NCBI GenBank assembly: GCA_031181145.1
Contig: JAPSLB010000011.1
Span: 1-64,000 of the forward strand
Length of the DNA stretch: 64,000 nucleotides
Direction of reading: 5' to 3'
DNA from: Microvirga sp.
Lineage (GTDB): Bacteria > Pseudomonadota > Alphaproteobacteria > Rhizobiales > Beijerinckiaceae
The notes under the pieces were generated by a model. It saw only the letters and a list, made by a program, of their open reading frames with translations, was not told where the DNA came from and ran no database searches. Positions 40,683 through 54,177 of this stretch are shown here, in pieces (the stretch's first letter is position 1; each line of letters begins with the position of its first letter). The position numbers and the translations under genes are program-made.

Positions 40683-41534
40683 CTACTCCGCGATGAATTT
40701 CATGCGATGGTCGCGGTAGAGATCGAGAATCGCGGCCGCGGTCTCCTCGATGGAGCGCCGCGTCACGTCGATCACCGGCCAGCCGTGACGCGCGAACAGC
40801 CGCCGAGAGGCCGCGACTTCCTCCGCGACGGCTTCGCGGTCCACATACGAAGTGTCGTCGTCGGCGTTCAGGCTGAGCAGCCGGTTCTGGCGGATCTGCA
40901 CGATGCGCTCGGGCGTCGCGACGAGGCCCACGATGAGAGATTTTTTCGCCGCCTCGAGCTTGGGCGGCAGAGGCATGCCGGGAACGAGAGGAAAATTCGC
41001 CGTCTTCAATCCGCGGTTGGCGAGATAGATTGCCGTCGGCGTCTTCGAGGTCCGGCTCACGCCCATGAGGATCACGTCCGCCTCGTCCAGATCCTCGGGC
41101 AGGTGCCCGTCGTCGTGGAGAAGGGTGAAGTTCATGGCGTCGATGCGCTTGAAATATTCCGCGTTAAGCATGTGCTGTGCGCCGGGCCGGGCGGTGGAAT
41201 GCGTGCCGAGATAGGAGGAAATCATCTGGTGCACGGGTTCGAGCACGGAGAGATAGGGAGAGCCGGTCGCGCGGCAGACCTCCTCGAGGCGGCCCGTGAG
41301 ATCCTTGTCCACGAGAGTGTAGAGCACAATCCCGGGGGCGCTTTCGATCTCGGTCAGCACGCGCTCGAGTTGCGTGGTGGAGCGCACCAGCGGGTAGACA
41401 TGCTCGATGGCGGCGACGCCTTCATATTGCGCGACCACCGCCCGGGCGACGGTGATCAGGGTCTCTCCCGTCGAATCGGAGACGAGATGAAGATGGAAGT
41501 AGCTGCGTCCCGGCACGACGGTTCTCCCGAGCAT
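40683..41534 (-). CDS. ppsR: pyruvate,phosphate dikinase / PEP synthase regulatory protein
   Basis: Bifunctional kinase/pyrophosphorylase (DUF299) that inactivates and reactivates PPDK or PEP synthase by threonine phosphorylation; 283 residues. [20 protein letters not shown], the P-loop-like [18 protein letters not shown] and [12 protein letters not shown] are diagnostic. It is the first minus-strand gene left of the origin, as its homologue is at the Caulobacter origin. Which dikinase it controls here is not visible. Confidence 0.93.
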
Positions 41535-41837
41535 CGGACCTGAAAGTGGTTTACACTTTTAGGGCCCATCCGGTGCTCTCTGGTCAATCGGCACATCGCT
41601 TTATGCGGACCCGAAGGGCCGCGTCAGCGAAAACCGGGTCCACGTTTCCGCACGATGCGCAAAGGAGTCGATAAATGTGGATAGAACGGCTCCAGTCCGA
41701 GGTCCAGGGCAAGGGCCTGTGATCTGTCGCTATGGCCATCAACAGCGGAGCTTCGTGTGTGAGTCCGAATTCTCACGTTTGGGAGAATCCGGCACGAATC
41801 ACCTCCGCAGTCCGCGTTAAGGTTCCGTTCAACTTCA

Positions 41838-41852
41838 TTAACGGGCTGTTAA
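41838..41852. promoter_or_regulatory. CtrA-type box 1 in oriC
   Basis: TTAACGGGCTGTTAA, an exact TTAA-N7-TTAA. In Caulobacter such boxes at the origin bind the response regulator CtrA, which blocks initiation. It sits 20 bases after a related half-match at 41817-41831. Confidence 0.7.
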
Positions 41853-41896
41853 GGTTTAAGAATTCGGAAAGGATTGTGGCGGGGCGGCCCCGTCCG

Positions 41897-41911
41897 TTAA
41901 TGAACAGTTAA
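41897..41911. promoter_or_regulatory. CtrA-type box 2 in oriC
   Basis: TTAATGAACAGTTAA, an exact TTAA-N7-TTAA embedded in a longer perfect inverted repeat CCGTTAA/TTAACGG. It lies about 110 bases before hemE and could also repress the hemE promoter. Confidence 0.7.
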
Positions 41912-42022
41912 CGGGATGCTCCGTGTGGAAGGGTTGTGGACGGGGTTGCGGCTTTGCGATTCACGGCCCAAGAGAAACATCAGATTCTTAGATTCAAGAA
42001 TTATTCTTCTTAGAGAGGGCCT

Positions 42023-43060
42023 GTGAGCGAGCGTCCCACCAAAGCGATCCTCCGCGTGCTGAACGGCGAACCGGTCTGGCCTCTGCCGGTCTGGATCATG
42101 CGCCAGGCCGGCCGCTATCTCCCGGAATACCGGGAGACCCGGAAACAGGCGGGCTCCTTCCTGGATCTCTGCTATACGCCGAGGCTTGCCGAGGAAGTCA
42201 CTCTTCAGCCGATCCGCCGCTTCGGCTTCGACGCCTCGATCCTGTTCTCCGACATCCTGGTCATCCCCCATGCGCTCGGCCAGGACGTGCGCTTCGTCGA
42301 GAACGAGGGTCCGAAGCTCGATCCCGTCACCTCGGGGAAGGATCTTGCGAAACTCGCCGACGAGCTGCCGCTGGAGCGGCTCGATCCGGTCTTCGAGACT
42401 TTGGATCGCCTGAGCAAGTCCTTGCCGAAGGAAACCACCCTCCTCGGCTTCTGCGGGGCACCCTGGACGGTCGCGAGCTACATGATCGCCGGCAAGGGCA
42501 CCCCGGACCAGGCGCCCGCCCGGCTCACCGCCTATCGTGACCCGGCCTTCATGGACGATCTCATCGAGAAGCTGGTGCAGGCCTCCACCGCCTATCTCAT
42601 CCGCCAGATCGATGCGGGGGCGGAAGCGGTCCAGATCTTCGAGAGCTTCGGTGCGGCGCTTCCGCCCGCTCTCTTCGACCGGCTGTCCCTCGACCCGATC
42701 CGCCGCATGGTGGAGGGCCTGAAGGCCGCGCGGCCTCAGGCCAAGGCGATCGTGTTCGTGCGCGGCGGCGGCGCGAACCTTCATCGCTTCGCCTCGGCCG
42801 GGATAGGCGACGCGCTGGCGCTGGATTGGACGCTTGATCCGGCTCTGGTGCTGCCCACCCTGCCGGGCACCGTCGCAACCCAGGGCAATCTCGATCCGCT
42901 CGCGCTGATCGCCGGCGGGGAGCCGATGGAGCAGGGGATAGACCACATCCTCGGTGCGGTGCGCGGCCGTCCGCACATCTTCAATCTCGGCCACGGCATC
43001 CTGCCGGAGACGCCGATCGCCCATGTGGAGCAGATGATCGCCCGCGTTCGGAGAACTTGA
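42023..43060 (+). CDS. hemE: uroporphyrinogen decarboxylase
   Basis: Heme synthesis enzyme converting uroporphyrinogen III to coproporphyrinogen III; 345 residues. PVWIMRQAGRYLPEYRETR carries the substrate-binding Arg and Asp residues, with FGFDASILFSDILVIPHALG and GFCGAPWTVASYMIAG following. GTG 42023 is the only plausible start. It is the first gene right of the origin, transcribed away from it, with hemJ immediately downstream. Confidence 0.96.
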   Translation: MSERPTKAILRVLNGEPVWPLPVWIMRQAGRYLPEYRETRKQAGSFLDLCYTPRLAEEVTLQPIRRFGFDASILFSDILVIPHALGQDVRFVENEGPKLDPVTSGKDLAKLADELPLERLDPVFETLDRLSKSLPKETTLLGFCGAPWTVASYMIAGKGTPDQAPARLTAYRDPAFMDDLIEKLVQASTAYLIRQIDAGAEAVQIFESFGAALPPALFDRLSLDPIRRMVEGLKAARPQAKAIVFVRGGGANLHRFASAGIGDALALDWTLDPALVLPTLPGTVATQGNLDPLALIAGGEPMEQGIDHILGAVRGRPHIFNLGHGILPETPIAHVEQMIARVRRT

Positions 43061-49717: not shown

Positions 49718-49846
49718 CCCTCGGGTTAAGGATCGGGCGAATTTGTGAGACTCCGCCGCATCCCTGTTCACGAATCGCCTGAATGATGGTGAATCCTCCC
49801 TGCACAGCCTGTGGGAATCGTGTGCAGAAGCGGCGAGTCAGGCGAA

Positions 49847-49862
49847 TGTTTCACGTGGAACA
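49847..49862. other. parS site 1
   Basis: TGTTTCACGTGGAACA, a match to the bacterial parS consensus with only the wobble positions differing between arms. ParB spreads from such sites to segregate the origin region. It lies 46 bases before mnmG, about 8 kb from oriC and 3.4 kb from parB. Confidence 0.9.
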
Positions 49863-49907
49863 TTTTGCCCTTTTGACCTCTTCGCTGCGAGGTCTTAGAC
49901 CCCAGGC

Positions 49908-51821
49908 ATGGAGAATTTCGTGAGTCAGATCTCTTCCCTTGAGATGTTCGATGTCGTCGTGGTCGGGGGCGGCCATGCGGGCGCCGAGGCGGCTGCCGCT
50001 TCGGCGCGCATGGGCGCGCGCACGGCCCTCGTGACCCATAAGCTCTCGACCATCGGCGCCATGTCATGCAACCCGGCTATCGGCGGGCTCGGCAAAGGCC
50101 ATCTGGTCCGCGAAATCGATGCCCTCGACGGGGTCATGGGCCGCATGGCCGACAGGGCTGGAATTCAGTTCCGGCTCCTGAACCGCCGCAAGGGTCCTGC
50201 CGTGCGCGGGCCTCGCACACAGGCGGACCGGAAGCTCTATGCCCAGGCCATGCAGGCCGAGCTGCTCCAGACCGACAATCTCGCCATCGTCGAAGGGGAG
50301 GCGGACGATCTCCTCGTGCAGGACGGATACGTGACGGGGCTCCTGCTGAGCGACGGGCGGCAGCTCCGGGCCGGCGCCGTGGTCATTACCACTGGCACCT
50401 TCCTGTCCGGCCTCATCCATATCGGCGAGAAGAAGATCCCGGCCGGGCGGATGGGCGAGCGTCCTTCCCTTGGCCTTCCGAAGACCTTTGCCCGCCTCGG
50501 CTTCACCCTGGGCCGGCTGAAGACGGGCACTCCGCCGCGCCTCGACGGGCGCACCATCGACTGGGCGGGCGTGGACAAGCAGGCGGCGGATGACGATCCG
50601 GTGCCGTTCTCCCTGCTGACGGACAGGATCACGACACCGCAGATCGAGTGCGGCATCACCCGCACCACGGCTAGGGTACATGAGTTGATCCGGGCCAACC
50701 TGCACCGCTCCGCCATGTATTCCGGGGACATTCAGGGCACCGGCCCGCGCTATTGCCCTTCCATCGAGGACAAGGTGGTGCGCTTCGGTGATCGCGACGG
50801 GCACCAGATCTTCCTGGAGCCGGAAGGCCTGGACGACATCAAGGTCTATCCCAACGGTATCTCGACCTCCCTGCCGGAGGACGTGCAGCTGGAATTCCTG
50901 AAACATGTTCCGGGTCTCGAGAAGGTGCGGATGCTCCAGCCGGCCTATGCCATCGAATACGATTACGTGGACCCACGAAACCTGACGGCCGGGCTCGAAA
51001 CCAAAGCGGTGAGGGGACTGTTCCTGGCAGGCCAGATCAACGGCACCACGGGTTACGAGGAAGCGGGCGCTCAGGGCTTGGTCGCAGGCATCAATGCCGC
51101 CCGCCGCGCGGCGGGGCAGGAGAATGTGGTCTTCGATCGGGCCGAGTCTTACATCGGCGTGCTGATCGACGATCTGATCACCCGGGGAGTGAGCGAGCCC
51201 TACCGGATGTTCACCTCCCGGTCGGAATATCGCCTGAGCCTGCGGATCGACAATGTGGACGAGCGCCTGACCGGAAAGGGTCTGGAGATCGGCTGCGTGG
51301 GCGCGAGGCGTGCGGCGCATTTCCATGAGACGCAGGAGGAAATCCGCTCCGTTCGCGAGCGTCTCCGATCCTTGAGCCTCACGCCGCAGGAAGCGGCGCG
51401 CCATGGTCTCAGTCTCAATCAGGACGGGATTCGCCGTAGCGCCTATCAGCTCCTGTCCTATCCGGCGATCGGCTGGGATGATCTTGCCATGGCTTGGCCG
51501 GATCTCGCTTCGGTGTCGCCCCAGGTGCGGGAGCGGCTCGAAACGGACGCGACCTATGCGGTATATCTCGACCGGCAGCAGGCCGACATTGCCGCCTATC
51601 GCCGGGACGAGGGCATCGTGCTCGAGGAGACGCTGGACTTCCGTGGACTTCCGGGCCTGTCGAACGAGATCAAGGCGAAGCTTGACCTGGTCCGGCCGAA
51701 GACCCTTGGCCAAGCGGCACGGATCGAGGGGATTACGCCTGCCGCCCTGACGCTTCTGGCCGCCCACGCGAGGAAGGCATCCTCCGAGGCCGTGAGGCTC
51801 TCCGAACCGGTGGCGTCATGA
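49908..51821 (+). CDS. mnmG: tRNA uridine 5-carboxymethylaminomethyl modification enzyme MnmG
   Basis: FAD-dependent partner of MnmE, 637 residues. FAD motif [23 protein letters not shown], then [40 protein letters not shown], and CGQ-type ALEHMNTP-like C-terminal helices are in place; [20 protein letters not shown] is the FAD-domain return. Starts at ATG 49908 or codons nearby (GTG 49920, ATG 49944) are all plausible. The stop overlaps rsmG by ATGA. Confidence 0.95.
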
Positions 51822-52444
51822 ATGCCCCCGCCTCGGCCCGGGCCGACCTGAATGTTTCACGTGAAACGCTGGAGAAGCTGGAGCTTCTCGAACGCGAGTT
51901 GCGCCGCTGGCAGGCGATCAAGAATCTCGTCGGCCCGGCGACGCTCGACCGGATCTGGGAGCGACACGTCATCGATTCCCTCCAGCTGCTGGAGCACGCT
52001 CCCGCGGCCAGGACCTGGGTGGATCTCGGCTCCGGAGCCGGTTTTCCCGGACTCGTGCTCGCCATCGCGGGGCAGGAGAGGGGACTGACGGTTCACCTTG
52101 TCGAGAGCAATTCCCGCAAATGCGCCTTCCTGCGCCAGATCGCCCGCCTCACCGGAGCTTCGGCGATTGTGCACGAAGAGCGGCTGGAGGCGGTCATTCC
52201 CGGTTTCGTCAGCAAGGCCGACGTGGTCTCCGCCCGGGCTCTGGCTTCGCTGACGCAGCTGCTGGAATGGACAGAGCCCATGTTGAAAACGGGGACGACC
52301 GGGCTCTTTCCCAAAGGGCGGGATGCCGAGTCCGAATTGACCGAGGCTCGGAAAAGGTGGACAGTCAAGGCAGACATCCTGCCGAGCCGCACCGATTCCG
52401 AGGCCAGGATCCTTCGCATAACCTCCATCGAGAGCCTGACATGA
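51818..52444 (+). CDS. rsmG: 16S rRNA (guanine527-N7)-methyltransferase
   Basis: SAM-dependent GidB methyltransferase, 208 residues. The core shows [16 protein letters not shown] (SAM loop), [22 protein letters not shown] and [18 protein letters not shown] 51818 overlaps mnmG and its stop overlaps parA (ATGA). Codons 12-17 of this gene contain a parS site, so the N-terminal residues NVSRET are partly fixed by ParB binding. Confidence 0.95.
51853..51868. other. parS site 2, inside rsmG
   Basis: TGTTTCACGTGAAACG differs from the perfect palindrome TGTTTCACGTGAAACA at the last base only. It lies in rsmG codons 12-17, 2.0 kb from site 1. Intragenic parS sites near parAB occur in other bacteria. 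Confidence 0.88.
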
Positions 52445-53280
52445 TGACCGACCTCAGCGAATCCCAGGACGGAGCGCGTGGCGTGAAGCCGCGCGTTCTC
52501 GTGGTCGCCAACCAGAAGGGTGGCGTCGGCAAGACGACGACAGCCATCAATCTCGGCACGGCTCTGGCGGCCATCGGGGAGAAGGTGCTCATCATCGACC
52601 TCGATCCACAGGGCAATGCTTCGACGGGCCTGGGGATCGACCGCAAGAGCCGTCAGGTCTCGACCTATCACGTTCTGGCCGGTGAAGCCTCGCTTTCCGA
52701 GAGCATCACGGAGACGGTGGTGCCGGGCTTATGGCTCGCACCCTCGACGCTCGACCTCCTGGGGATCGAATTGGAGATCGCGAATGAGCGGAACCGCGCT
52801 CACCGTCTCCGCGCGGCGATTCGCAGCTTGGCCGGGGATGAAGTAATTGAACCTTTTACCTATATCCTGATCGATTGCCCGCCGTCTCTTAATCTTCTGA
52901 CCATCAATGCCTTGACCGCGGCAGACGCCGTTCTGGTCCCGCTTCAATGCGAATTCTTCGCTCTGGAGGGACTCAGCCAATTGCTCAAGACAGTGGAACA
53001 GGTCCGATCGGCGCTCAATCCGGATCTGACGATTCACGGCGTGGTGCTCACCATGTTCGACCCACGCAACAACCTGTCGGGGCAGGTGGTGGCGGATGTG
53101 CGCGAGTTCATGGGGGACAAGGTCTACGAGACCATGATCCCGCGGAACGTGCGGGTGTCCGAGGCTCCGTCCCACGGCAAGCCGGTGCTGCTTTACGATA
53201 TCAAGTGCACCGGCTCCCAGGCTTACCTCCGTTTGGCATCCGAAATCATTCAGCGTGAGCGCGCCCTGCGCGCCGCGTAA
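52441..53280 (+). CDS. parA: chromosome-partitioning ATPase ParA
   Basis: Walker-type ATPase of 279 residues that drives origin segregation. The deviant Walker A KGGVGKTTTAINLG, DLDPQGNASTGLGI, IDCPPSLNLLTINAL and the P-loop partner motifs are present. The chromosomal type lacks an N-terminal helix-turn-helix. The ATG overlaps the rsmG stop; parB follows after 18 bases. Confidence 0.96.
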   Translation: MMTDLSESQDGARGVKPRVLVVANQKGGVGKTTTAINLGTALAAIGEKVLIIDLDPQGNASTGLGIDRKSRQVSTYHVLAGEASLSESITETVVPGLWLAPSTLDLLGIELEIANERNRAHRLRAAIRSLAGDEVIEPFTYILIDCPPSLNLLTINALTAADAVLVPLQCEFFALEGLSQLLKTVEQVRSALNPDLTIHGVVLTMFDPRNNLSGQVVADVREFMGDKVYETMIPRNVRVSEAPSHGKPVLLYDIKCTGSQAYLRLASEIIQRERALRAA

Positions 53281-53298
53281 CGAGAGTTGAGACGAACA

Positions 53299-54177
53299 AT
53301 GGCGAAAGAAATGAAGTCGCTGGGCCGGGGCTTGGCCGCGCTGATCGGAGAAGTCGGTGACGAAATCGGCTCCATCCAGAGCAGCAAGGGTGGCGCGAGG
53401 AAGGTGCCCGTCGAGTTCCTGCGGCCGAACCCGCGCAATCCGCGCAAGGTGTTCGAGGATACGGAACTCGAGGAGCTGACCCAATCCATCAAGGACCGCG
53501 GCATCATTCAGCCTATCGTGGTCCGGCCCTTGCCGAACAAGAGCGACGCTTACGAGATCGTCGCGGGCGAACGCCGCTGGCGCGCCTCGCAGAAGGCCGG
53601 TCTGCACGAGGTGCCGGTGGTGGTCGTCCATATCGACGACAAGACCTCCCTCGAATACGCCATTCTCGAGAACGTCCAGCGTGCGGACCTCAACCCGATC
53701 GAGGAGGCGGAAGGCTATGCCCGGCTGATGGCCGAGTTCTCCTATACGCAGGAGAATCTTTCGAAGATCATCGGCAAGAGCCGGAGCCACATCGCCAATA
53801 TGATGCGTCTCAGCGATCTTCCCGACCCGGTGAAGAAGCTTCTCGTCGAGCGCAAGCTCTCCGCCGGCCATGGCCGTGCGCTGCTGGCCGTGAAGGACCC
53901 GATTGGGGTCGCCAAGCAGGTGCTCGACCAGGGCATGAGCGTGCGGCAGGTGGAGGCCCTTGCGCAGTCGGAAAGCGCCGAGCCGGCCAGGCTCGAAACC
54001 AAGTCCGCCAAGATCAAGGCCGAGAAGGATCCGGACACCCGTGCCCTGGAGCGCGTCCTCCAGGACGTGCTGGGCCTCACCGTCACCATCGACCACAAGG
54101 GCAATGGCGGTGAATTGCGCATCCGCTACAAGACCCTGGAACAGCTCGATGGGCTCTGCCGCCGGCTGAATCCCTGA
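53299..54177 (+). CDS. parB: chromosome-partitioning protein ParB
   Basis: CTP-dependent DNA clamp that binds parS, 292 residues. LGRGLAALIGE is the ParA-stimulating N-terminus. The CTP-binding boxes include YEIVAGERRWRASQKAGL and ENVQRADLNPIEEAEGYARL; the helix-turn-helix (TQENLSKIIGKSRSHIANMMRL) and dimerisation C-terminus follow. Its two targets are in this window at 49847 and 51853. ATG 53299 is the start; a TTG at 53287 is less likely. Confidence 0.96.
   Translation: MAKEMKSLGRGLAALIGEVGDEIGSIQSSKGGARKVPVEFLRPNPRNPRKVFEDTELEELTQSIKDRGIIQPIVVRPLPNKSDAYEIVAGERRWRASQKAGLHEVPVVVVHIDDKTSLEYAILENVQRADLNPIEEAEGYARLMAEFSYTQENLSKIIGKSRSHIANMMRLSDLPDPVKKLLVERKLSAGHGRALLAVKDPIGVAKQVLDQGMSVRQVEALAQSESAEPARLETKSAKIKAEKDPDTRALERVLQDVLGLTVTIDHKGNGGELRIRYKTLEQLDGLCRRLNP

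Follow-up and report, generated by a model that had tools for sequence, protein, structure and literature searches.

The 488-bp gap between ppsR and hemE is very probably the chromosome replication origin of Microvirga. This call, made from sequence, follows from its flanking genes, its invariant TGTGGA cores, a nearby GC-skew switch in four Microvirga genomes and parS sites 8–11 kb away, and the same evidence bears out the origin that a preliminary description had placed here in the window, as we call the whole 64,000-bp stretch analyzed. In the joint reading that we favor, with a probability of roughly 0.8, DnaA would act at the cores of this origin, phosphorylated CtrA (CtrA~P) would block it, and CcrM would methylate its GANTC sites, with GcrA as the reader. 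The gap and its two flanking genes are as follows:

41535-42022, no strand assigned: ppsR-hemE gap, predicted chromosomal origin (oriC), from conservation, skew, parS and flanking genes
40683-41534, minus strand: ppsR (DUF299/COG1806), origin flank, from an NCBIfam match
42023-43060, plus strand: hemE, origin flank, from an NCBIfam match

The bounds of the gap are exact, as ppsR starts at 41534 on the minus strand and hemE at 42023 on the plus strand. On the ppsR side follow maf, aroE, coaE and dnaQ, and on the hemE side hemJ and rho. This order, which the preliminary description had likened to that of known alphaproteobacterial origins, agreed with the protein matches: for all eight flanking proteins (ppsR-maf-aroE-coaE-dnaQ / hemE-hemJ-rho) the best NCBIfam match fitted the expected name, and seven of the eight passed the curated cut-off (Maf passes none). 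The gap therefore has the position of the hemE-type alphaproteobacterial chromosomal origins, between hemE and a COG1806/DUF299 gene (ppsR), and its flanking genes are those described for the Caulobacter and Rickettsia origins (PMC1914354). The two genes are neighbours in 77 of the 80 named loci; among sampled stretches, the figure is 86 of 97. Microvirga species are the closest named relatives of the window (HemE 95% identical to that of M. makkahensis, PpsR 97% identical), which places it in Microvirga, family Methylobacteriaceae, order Hyphomicrobiales.

Comparisons were made with three sets of relatives. Of the 80 named loci, three with no ppsR match were dropped, leaving 77; the 38 Microvirga gaps are 37 loci plus the window, and since these sequences are related, their counts are not independent. 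One locus titled Microvirga (L041) has a HemE only 73% identical and was counted with the sister groups. The survey was not random: the order sample comprised 69 of the 107 order genomes with hemE, the window’s own excepted, with ppsR inside the stretch in 61 and not in the other 8 (one of which ended at a contig end), and the class sample comprised the best 30 of 82 class genomes with hemE (28 labelled as the same class, 25 of them usable, plus one of the same family and the window’s own), so that distant orders are under-represented. The window’s own genome is 89.6% complete (4.56 Mb, 93 contigs), and genome-wide counts cover these contigs.

The predicted DnaA boxes of this hemE-type origin consist of one 9-mer and a set of invariant cores, listed here with the most AT-rich part of the gap:

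41676-41684, minus strand: DnaA box 1, CTATCCACA, one mismatch to TTATNCACA; its TGTGGA core (41676-41681) is kept in 38/38 Microvirga
41924-41929, minus strand: weak core TCCACA (TGTGGA on the plus strand), putatively of DnaA type; 38/38 Microvirga
41935-41940, minus strand: weak core TCCACA, putatively of DnaA type, 11 bp after the start of the previous core; 38/38 Microvirga
41975-42014, no strand assigned: at 75% AT, the richest in AT among the 40-bp windows scanned across the gap; perhaps an unwinding element, perhaps the hemE leader

The DnaA-like box of the preliminary description is thus present, with an invariant core. As a 9-mer alone it is unremarkable (20 matches in the window versus 16.4 expected). 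The hexamer TGTGGA/TCCACA occurred 116 times in the 38 Microvirga gaps versus 5.9 times in shuffles, and its fold enrichment was 13.8 in the other 40 named gaps, 8.4 in the 61 gaps of the order sample and 7.1 in the 25 gaps outside the order; the reversed control hexamer gave 0.5–1.5. The AT-rich block described earlier was also found, in modest form (62% AT at 41835-41874 and 75% in the window listed above, both 40 bp long). An IHF-type site (WATCAANNNNTTR) was searched for at up to one mismatch, and the gap held none. Cori, the Caulobacter origin, carries an IHF site; we know of no requirement for one in all hemE-type origins. Directly before hemE, positions 41946-41988 of the window form a block that is nearly invariant in Microvirga (TTGCGGCTTTGCGATTCACGGCCCAAGAGAAACATCAGATTCT) and could belong to the origin or represent the hemE promoter.

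GC skew was taken from sampled stretches. In the complete chromosome of Microvirga strain VF16, the cumulative skew over the contiguous 1–390 kb reached its minimum at 179.4 kb; the gap, at 199.4–199.8 kb, is 20 kb away, and dnaA lies at 0.4 kb. Coarse sampling of this chromosome gave positive skew in 7/7 stretches between 0.54 and 2.16 Mb and negative skew in 9/9 between 2.97 and 5.13 Mb. The values at 2.43 and 2.70 Mb were mixed, and contrary signs were seen at 5.34 and 5.38 Mb (positive) and in several small negative values at 270–350 kb. Of the 115 kb of the window’s own contig, 104 kb were read; the minimum there lay at 33.1 kb, the gap at 41.5–42.0 kb. M. subterranea and M. flavescens, with gaps at ~550 kb, changed sign between the 490- and 590-kb stretches, again with contrary stretches (in the former, positive skew at 60, 170 and 280 kb with negative skew at 690 kb; in the latter, positive skew at 280 kb). 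The sister genome YIM 77505 showed no clear switch at the gap in 40 noisy stretches. The skew check proposed with the preliminary description therefore came out in its favor in four Microvirga genomes, which switch near the gap as hemE-type origins do, and gave no usable signal in YIM 77505.

The parS motif GTTTCACGTGRAAC occurred exactly twice in each of four Microvirga genomes (4/4), always 8–11 kb from the gap, which is the proximity found at hemE-type origins; in Caulobacter, parS is described as lying ~8 kb from Cori (PMC6399470). In the window, the matches (49848 and 51854) fall in the run mnmE-mnmG-rsmG-parA-parB:

49847-49862, plus strand: parS 1, TGTTTCACGTGGAACA, in the mnmE-mnmG gap, from a motif search
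51853-51868, plus strand: parS 2, within the opening codons of the rsmG ORF, from a motif search
52120-54177, plus strand: parA ORF (52120-53280, from the first possible start) and parB (53287-54177), from ORFs

The true start of parA is probably later than 52120. As parS 2 lies inside the first rsmG codons, it may be under coding constraint too.

Boxes of the form TTAA-N7-TTAA, predicted to bind CtrA as in CtrA-silenced origins, lie between the DnaA cores. A motif scan recovered the two perfect boxes and the near match that had been described:

41817-41831, plus strand: near CtrA box, one mismatch
41838-41852, plus strand: exact CtrA box 1, TTAACGGGCTGTTAA, exact in 29/38 Microvirga
41897-41911, plus strand: exact CtrA box 2, TTAATGAACAGTTAA, exact in 29/38 Microvirga

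The two exact boxes are spaced 59 bp apart, and 12 bp lie between the end of box 2 and the next TGTGGA core, so the letters of box and core do not overlap. At up to one mismatch the motif had six matches in the 64 kb versus 0.76 expected, and when the gap was shuffled 5000 times with its dinucleotides preserved, two exact boxes never arose. The contigs of the own genome held 24 exact sites (the reversed control pattern had 12), and the pair in the gap was the only one within 10 kb on one contig. Conservation of both boxes in related genomes, which the preliminary description had put forward as a check, was evident in Microvirga: exact boxes numbered 58 versus 0.1 expected from shuffles of the 38 gaps, and at least one was present in 31 of the 38 (0.05 expected) and absent from seven. 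Exact boxes were further present in 32 of 40 gaps of other named relatives (0.33 expected), in 22 of 61 of the order (Hyphomicrobiales) sample (0.45 expected) and in 2 of 25 outside the order (0.22 expected), counts in which an exact-match search misses some sites. Their absence from 39 of the 61 order-sample gaps indicates that CtrA input is not essential to a hemE-type origin. The 968 kb of the 77 named loci contain 91 exact sites, of which 90 fell within the gap, although it makes up only 3.3% of the bases. Microvirga boxes mostly lie ~185 and ~126 bp upstream of hemE; among the named, order and class samples there are relatives whose only box is 17–65 bp before this gene. These sequence comparisons support the boxes as conserved, gap-specific predicted sites in a genus that encodes a CtrA ortholog, and CtrA control of the Microvirga origin is likely.

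Two other arrangements of TTAA halves were seen. TTAA-N6-TTAA (20 occurrences, enriched in Microvirga) was considered as a separate motif and rejected, because its positions are those of the right half of the near box and the left half of box 1. One further locus (L260, genome G202) carries two exact TTAA-N7-TTAA boxes 85 and 64 bp before hemE, with starts 21 bp apart and flanked by further TTAA halves, a layout that differs from that of Microvirga.

Mapped on a PpsR tree, the presence of an exact box required 25 changes versus 44 in shuffles (0/500 as low), 11 of the 25 being forced by well-supported branches. The label is clustered by clade and reflects neither a single gain nor a single loss. 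The tree was built by a quick method from 132 rows and the window, and included 8 of the 37 Microvirga loci; L039 and L262 were left out as too short. Nine order genomes (L235, L240, L241, L248, L250, L256, L257, L259 and L264) formed one set with support 98, and none of their gaps held an exact box; this set might hold Rhizobiaceae-like lineages.

We also evaluated the GANTC sites of the gap, of which there are seven:

41665-41669, no strand assigned: GANTC site, kept in 28/38 Microvirga
41761-41765, no strand assigned: GANTC site, 22/38 Microvirga, centre base variable
41785-41789, no strand assigned: GANTC site, 36/38 Microvirga
41796-41800, no strand assigned: GANTC site, 37/38 Microvirga
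41958-41962, no strand assigned: GANTC site, 38/38 Microvirga
41983-41987, no strand assigned: GANTC site, 38/38 Microvirga
41991-41995, no strand assigned: GANTC site, 34/38 Microvirga

The earlier count of seven was exact, and the expectation given with it (about 1.6) was of the right order of magnitude, shuffles of the gap averaging 2.5 and reaching at least seven in 36 of 5000. Across the window the mean is 1.04 per 488 bp, with the gap as the maximum. The proposed search for GANTC density in relatives gave 330 sites in the 38 Microvirga gaps versus 85.0 in shuffles of the same gaps (3.88-fold), with seven control palindromes of the same form at 0.24–1.33. Each Microvirga gap holds 6–12 sites, or 12.9–33.3 per kb versus 0.95–3.16 per kb outside the gap in the same locus. 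In Microvirga and its neighbours the cluster is several to thirty times denser than its surroundings. In the contiguous 390 kb of VF16, the densest 400-bp window had 10 sites, nine of them inside the gap, and the next place had six; none of 20 further stretches exceeded six. The excess falls off as kinship becomes more distant. It was 2.2-fold in the other 40 named gaps (control palindromes 0.58–1.69), with 2.96 in sister groups, 2.54 in Methylobacterium, 2.08 in Chelatococcaceae, where some Chelatococcus gaps were at flank level, and 1.47 in the rest. The order and class samples gave 1.62-fold and 1.64-fold, the former no higher than the best control palindrome in that sample (AGNCT, 1.76), which indicates that dense GANTC is a trait of Microvirga and its near relatives and not of the class. 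In the order sample, GANTC density was not linked to the presence of a CtrA box (medians 8.4 versus 7.1 per kb in 22 versus 39 gaps, p 0.18). At several variable places in the 38 Microvirga gaps the centre base changes and GA-TC is kept. Around most of the fixed sites, conservation extends past the motif into whole blocks, and the constancy of these sites is therefore no proof by itself of selection for methylation.

Over the window as a whole GANTC is depleted (135 sites versus 379 expected from shuffles of the 64,000 bp), in line with its reported under-representation in Alphaproteobacteria (PMC3973325). A second cluster, with six sites in 178 bp (49749-49926; five in the mnmE-mnmG gap proper, the cluster extending into the start of mnmG), adjoins parS 1. 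Near the corresponding parS 1, VF16 has five sites within 114 bp upstream, M. flavescens four within 146 bp, and M. subterranea one. VF16 also has clusters of six sites per 400 bp near 170.4 kb (L118, 160001-180000) and five per 400 bp near 110.4 kb (L115, 100001-120000), and both of these stretches carry TTATCCACA or TGTGGA words.

The regulators that such an origin would call on are encoded in the own genome. Its CtrA is 86% identical to Caulobacter CtrA over 204 residues and carries the receiver and Trans_reg_C domains of a CtrA ortholog; a CcrM-type methyltransferase with N6_N4_Mtase and RAMA domains, GcrA and one DnaA are also present. The gap has the dense methyltransferase sites of a methylation-sequestered origin of the E. 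coli type, and SeqA was found in none of four Microvirga genomes (0/4), with the E. coli positive control detected.

From the location, motif conservation, skew, parS sites and regulator genes, we infer how binding, occlusion and methylation might proceed. DnaA would assemble on the TGTGGA/TCCACA cores at 41676, 41924 and 41935, and the DNA would probably open in one of the AT-richer parts of the gap, near 41835-41875 or near 41975-42014. Phosphorylated CtrA on the two boxes would bar DnaA until CtrA is removed, as in Caulobacter, which offers a direct precedent. There, an origin stripped of its CtrA sites is described as replicating with only mild disturbance in constant culture, and the sites as essential under nutrients plus antibiotics (PMC4468827). 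CcrM would methylate the GANTC cluster, leaving the origin hemimethylated once replicated, and the reader of this state would most likely be GcrA, which would affect transcription driven from the origin and the hemE promoter. Of the Caulobacter-like cell-cycle control by CtrA and CcrM put forward in the preliminary description, the CtrA part is backed by conserved boxes and an encoded ortholog; the CcrM part, for which a GANTC cluster and the enzyme are present, is unsupported as worded, and CcrM control of initiation at the Microvirga origin is only hypothetical.

Some of these features would also be expected of an ordinary promoter region, in which CtrA boxes and GANTC sites regulate hemE and ppsR via CtrA and GcrA while the origin lies elsewhere. 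The strongest conserved block (41935-41988) does directly precede hemE, as does the sole box of the relatives that have it 17–65 bp from the gene, and GANTC is reported to be over-represented between genes in general (PMC3973325). Such a region would account neither for the invariant TGTGGA cores, the skew switch and the nearby parS, nor for most Microvirga boxes lying ~185 and ~126 bp from hemE, and we regard it as very improbable. It is conceivable, if rather doubtful, that the gap is an origin timed by DnaA alone, with the boxes and GANTC sites serving only hemE or origin-proximal promoters. The confinement of 90 of 91 box sites to the gap, with almost none elsewhere nearby, and the 12 bp between the end of box 2 and the invariant core pair speak against this, and set against them are the 39 of 61 order-sample gaps with no exact box, the mild effect of CtrA-site removal in constant Caulobacter culture (PMC4468827) and the absence of an effect of ccrM deletion on Caulobacter DNA content (PMC3973325).

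Another possibility is that the GANTC cluster times a DnaA origin through hemimethylation, delaying its re-initiation as GATC and SeqA do in E. coli, but with another reader. Its density relative to the flanks, its 3.9-fold excess over shuffles with control palindromes at 0.24–1.33, and the retention of GA-TC at some variable sites all fit, and E. coli oriC is described as having eleven GATC sites (PMC10073500). SeqA, however, is absent from the four Microvirga genomes (4/4), and an enrichment of 1.6-fold in the order and class samples, with some Chelatococcus gaps at flank level, shows that the cluster is not general. Precedents for CcrM are mixed, and most are negative. In Caulobacter, ccrM deletion is described as giving a DNA-content profile like that of the wild type, CcrM overproduction having earlier been reported to give extra chromosomes (PMC3973325); in Agrobacterium, CcrM depletion is described as affecting ori2 but leaving the DnaA-dependent ori1 without obvious change (PMC11514494). 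On account of the Caulobacter deletion and the ori1 data, we hold such a timer to be tentative and on the unlikely side. Beyond the joint reading of DnaA, CtrA~P and CcrM with GcrA, a more speculative and unlikely extension would give the origin of Microvirga and its neighbours two locks: CtrA boxes would bar DnaA in resting cells, and the GANTC cluster together with that in the parS gap would let origin and centromere sense their own replication by hemimethylation without SeqA, through GcrA or an unknown reader.

In the open-licence literature, we found neither CtrA boxes in Hyphomicrobiales origins nor a GANTC-dense origin of DnaA type in the order. What is new here is that predicted CtrA boxes occur in many Hyphomicrobiales origins, patchily and clustered by clade, with a state that changed many times. 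A review states that CtrA sites were not seen in origins beyond Caulobacter and perhaps Rickettsia (PMC4468827), which boxes in a good part of Hyphomicrobiales would contradict. Their patchiness makes the timing of the CtrA-origin wiring a question that can be mapped. CcrM timing of a DnaA origin is reported as tested in Caulobacter and not found there (PMC3973325). The genus-wide GANTC density provides a natural strain set for asking whether CcrM methylation times such an origin.

Hyphomonas neptunium belongs to another order than Microvirga. A CtrA ChIP-seq peak is described as adjoining its origin (PMC7200025), a likeness by description only. Sinorhizobium meliloti, like Microvirga, belongs to Hyphomicrobiales and has CtrA and CcrM (PMC4433202, PMC8725594), but its chromosomal origin is reported to have no CtrA motifs and to be unbound by CtrA (PMC4433202); Brucella CtrA is likewise reported not to bind the origin (PMC2877005). 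In Escherichia coli oriC, as in the Microvirga gap, the origin is densely set with sites for a solitary adenine methyltransferase, with GATC, Dam and SeqA in E. coli versus GANTC and CcrM in Microvirga, where SeqA was not found in 4/4 genomes. Caulobacter crescentus Cori was compared by description. Cori has five CtrA sites versus two exact and one near in the Microvirga gap, which, unlike Cori, has no IHF-type site and holds 6–12 GANTC throughout the genus sample. Like the Microvirga gap, Cori is described as lying between hemE and a COG1806/DUF299 gene with TTAA-N7-TTAA boxes and weak DnaA sites (PMC1914354, PMC4468827) and as containing several GANTC (PMC3973325), and a ppsR-hemE origin with CtrA boxes is in this respect of an already known kind.
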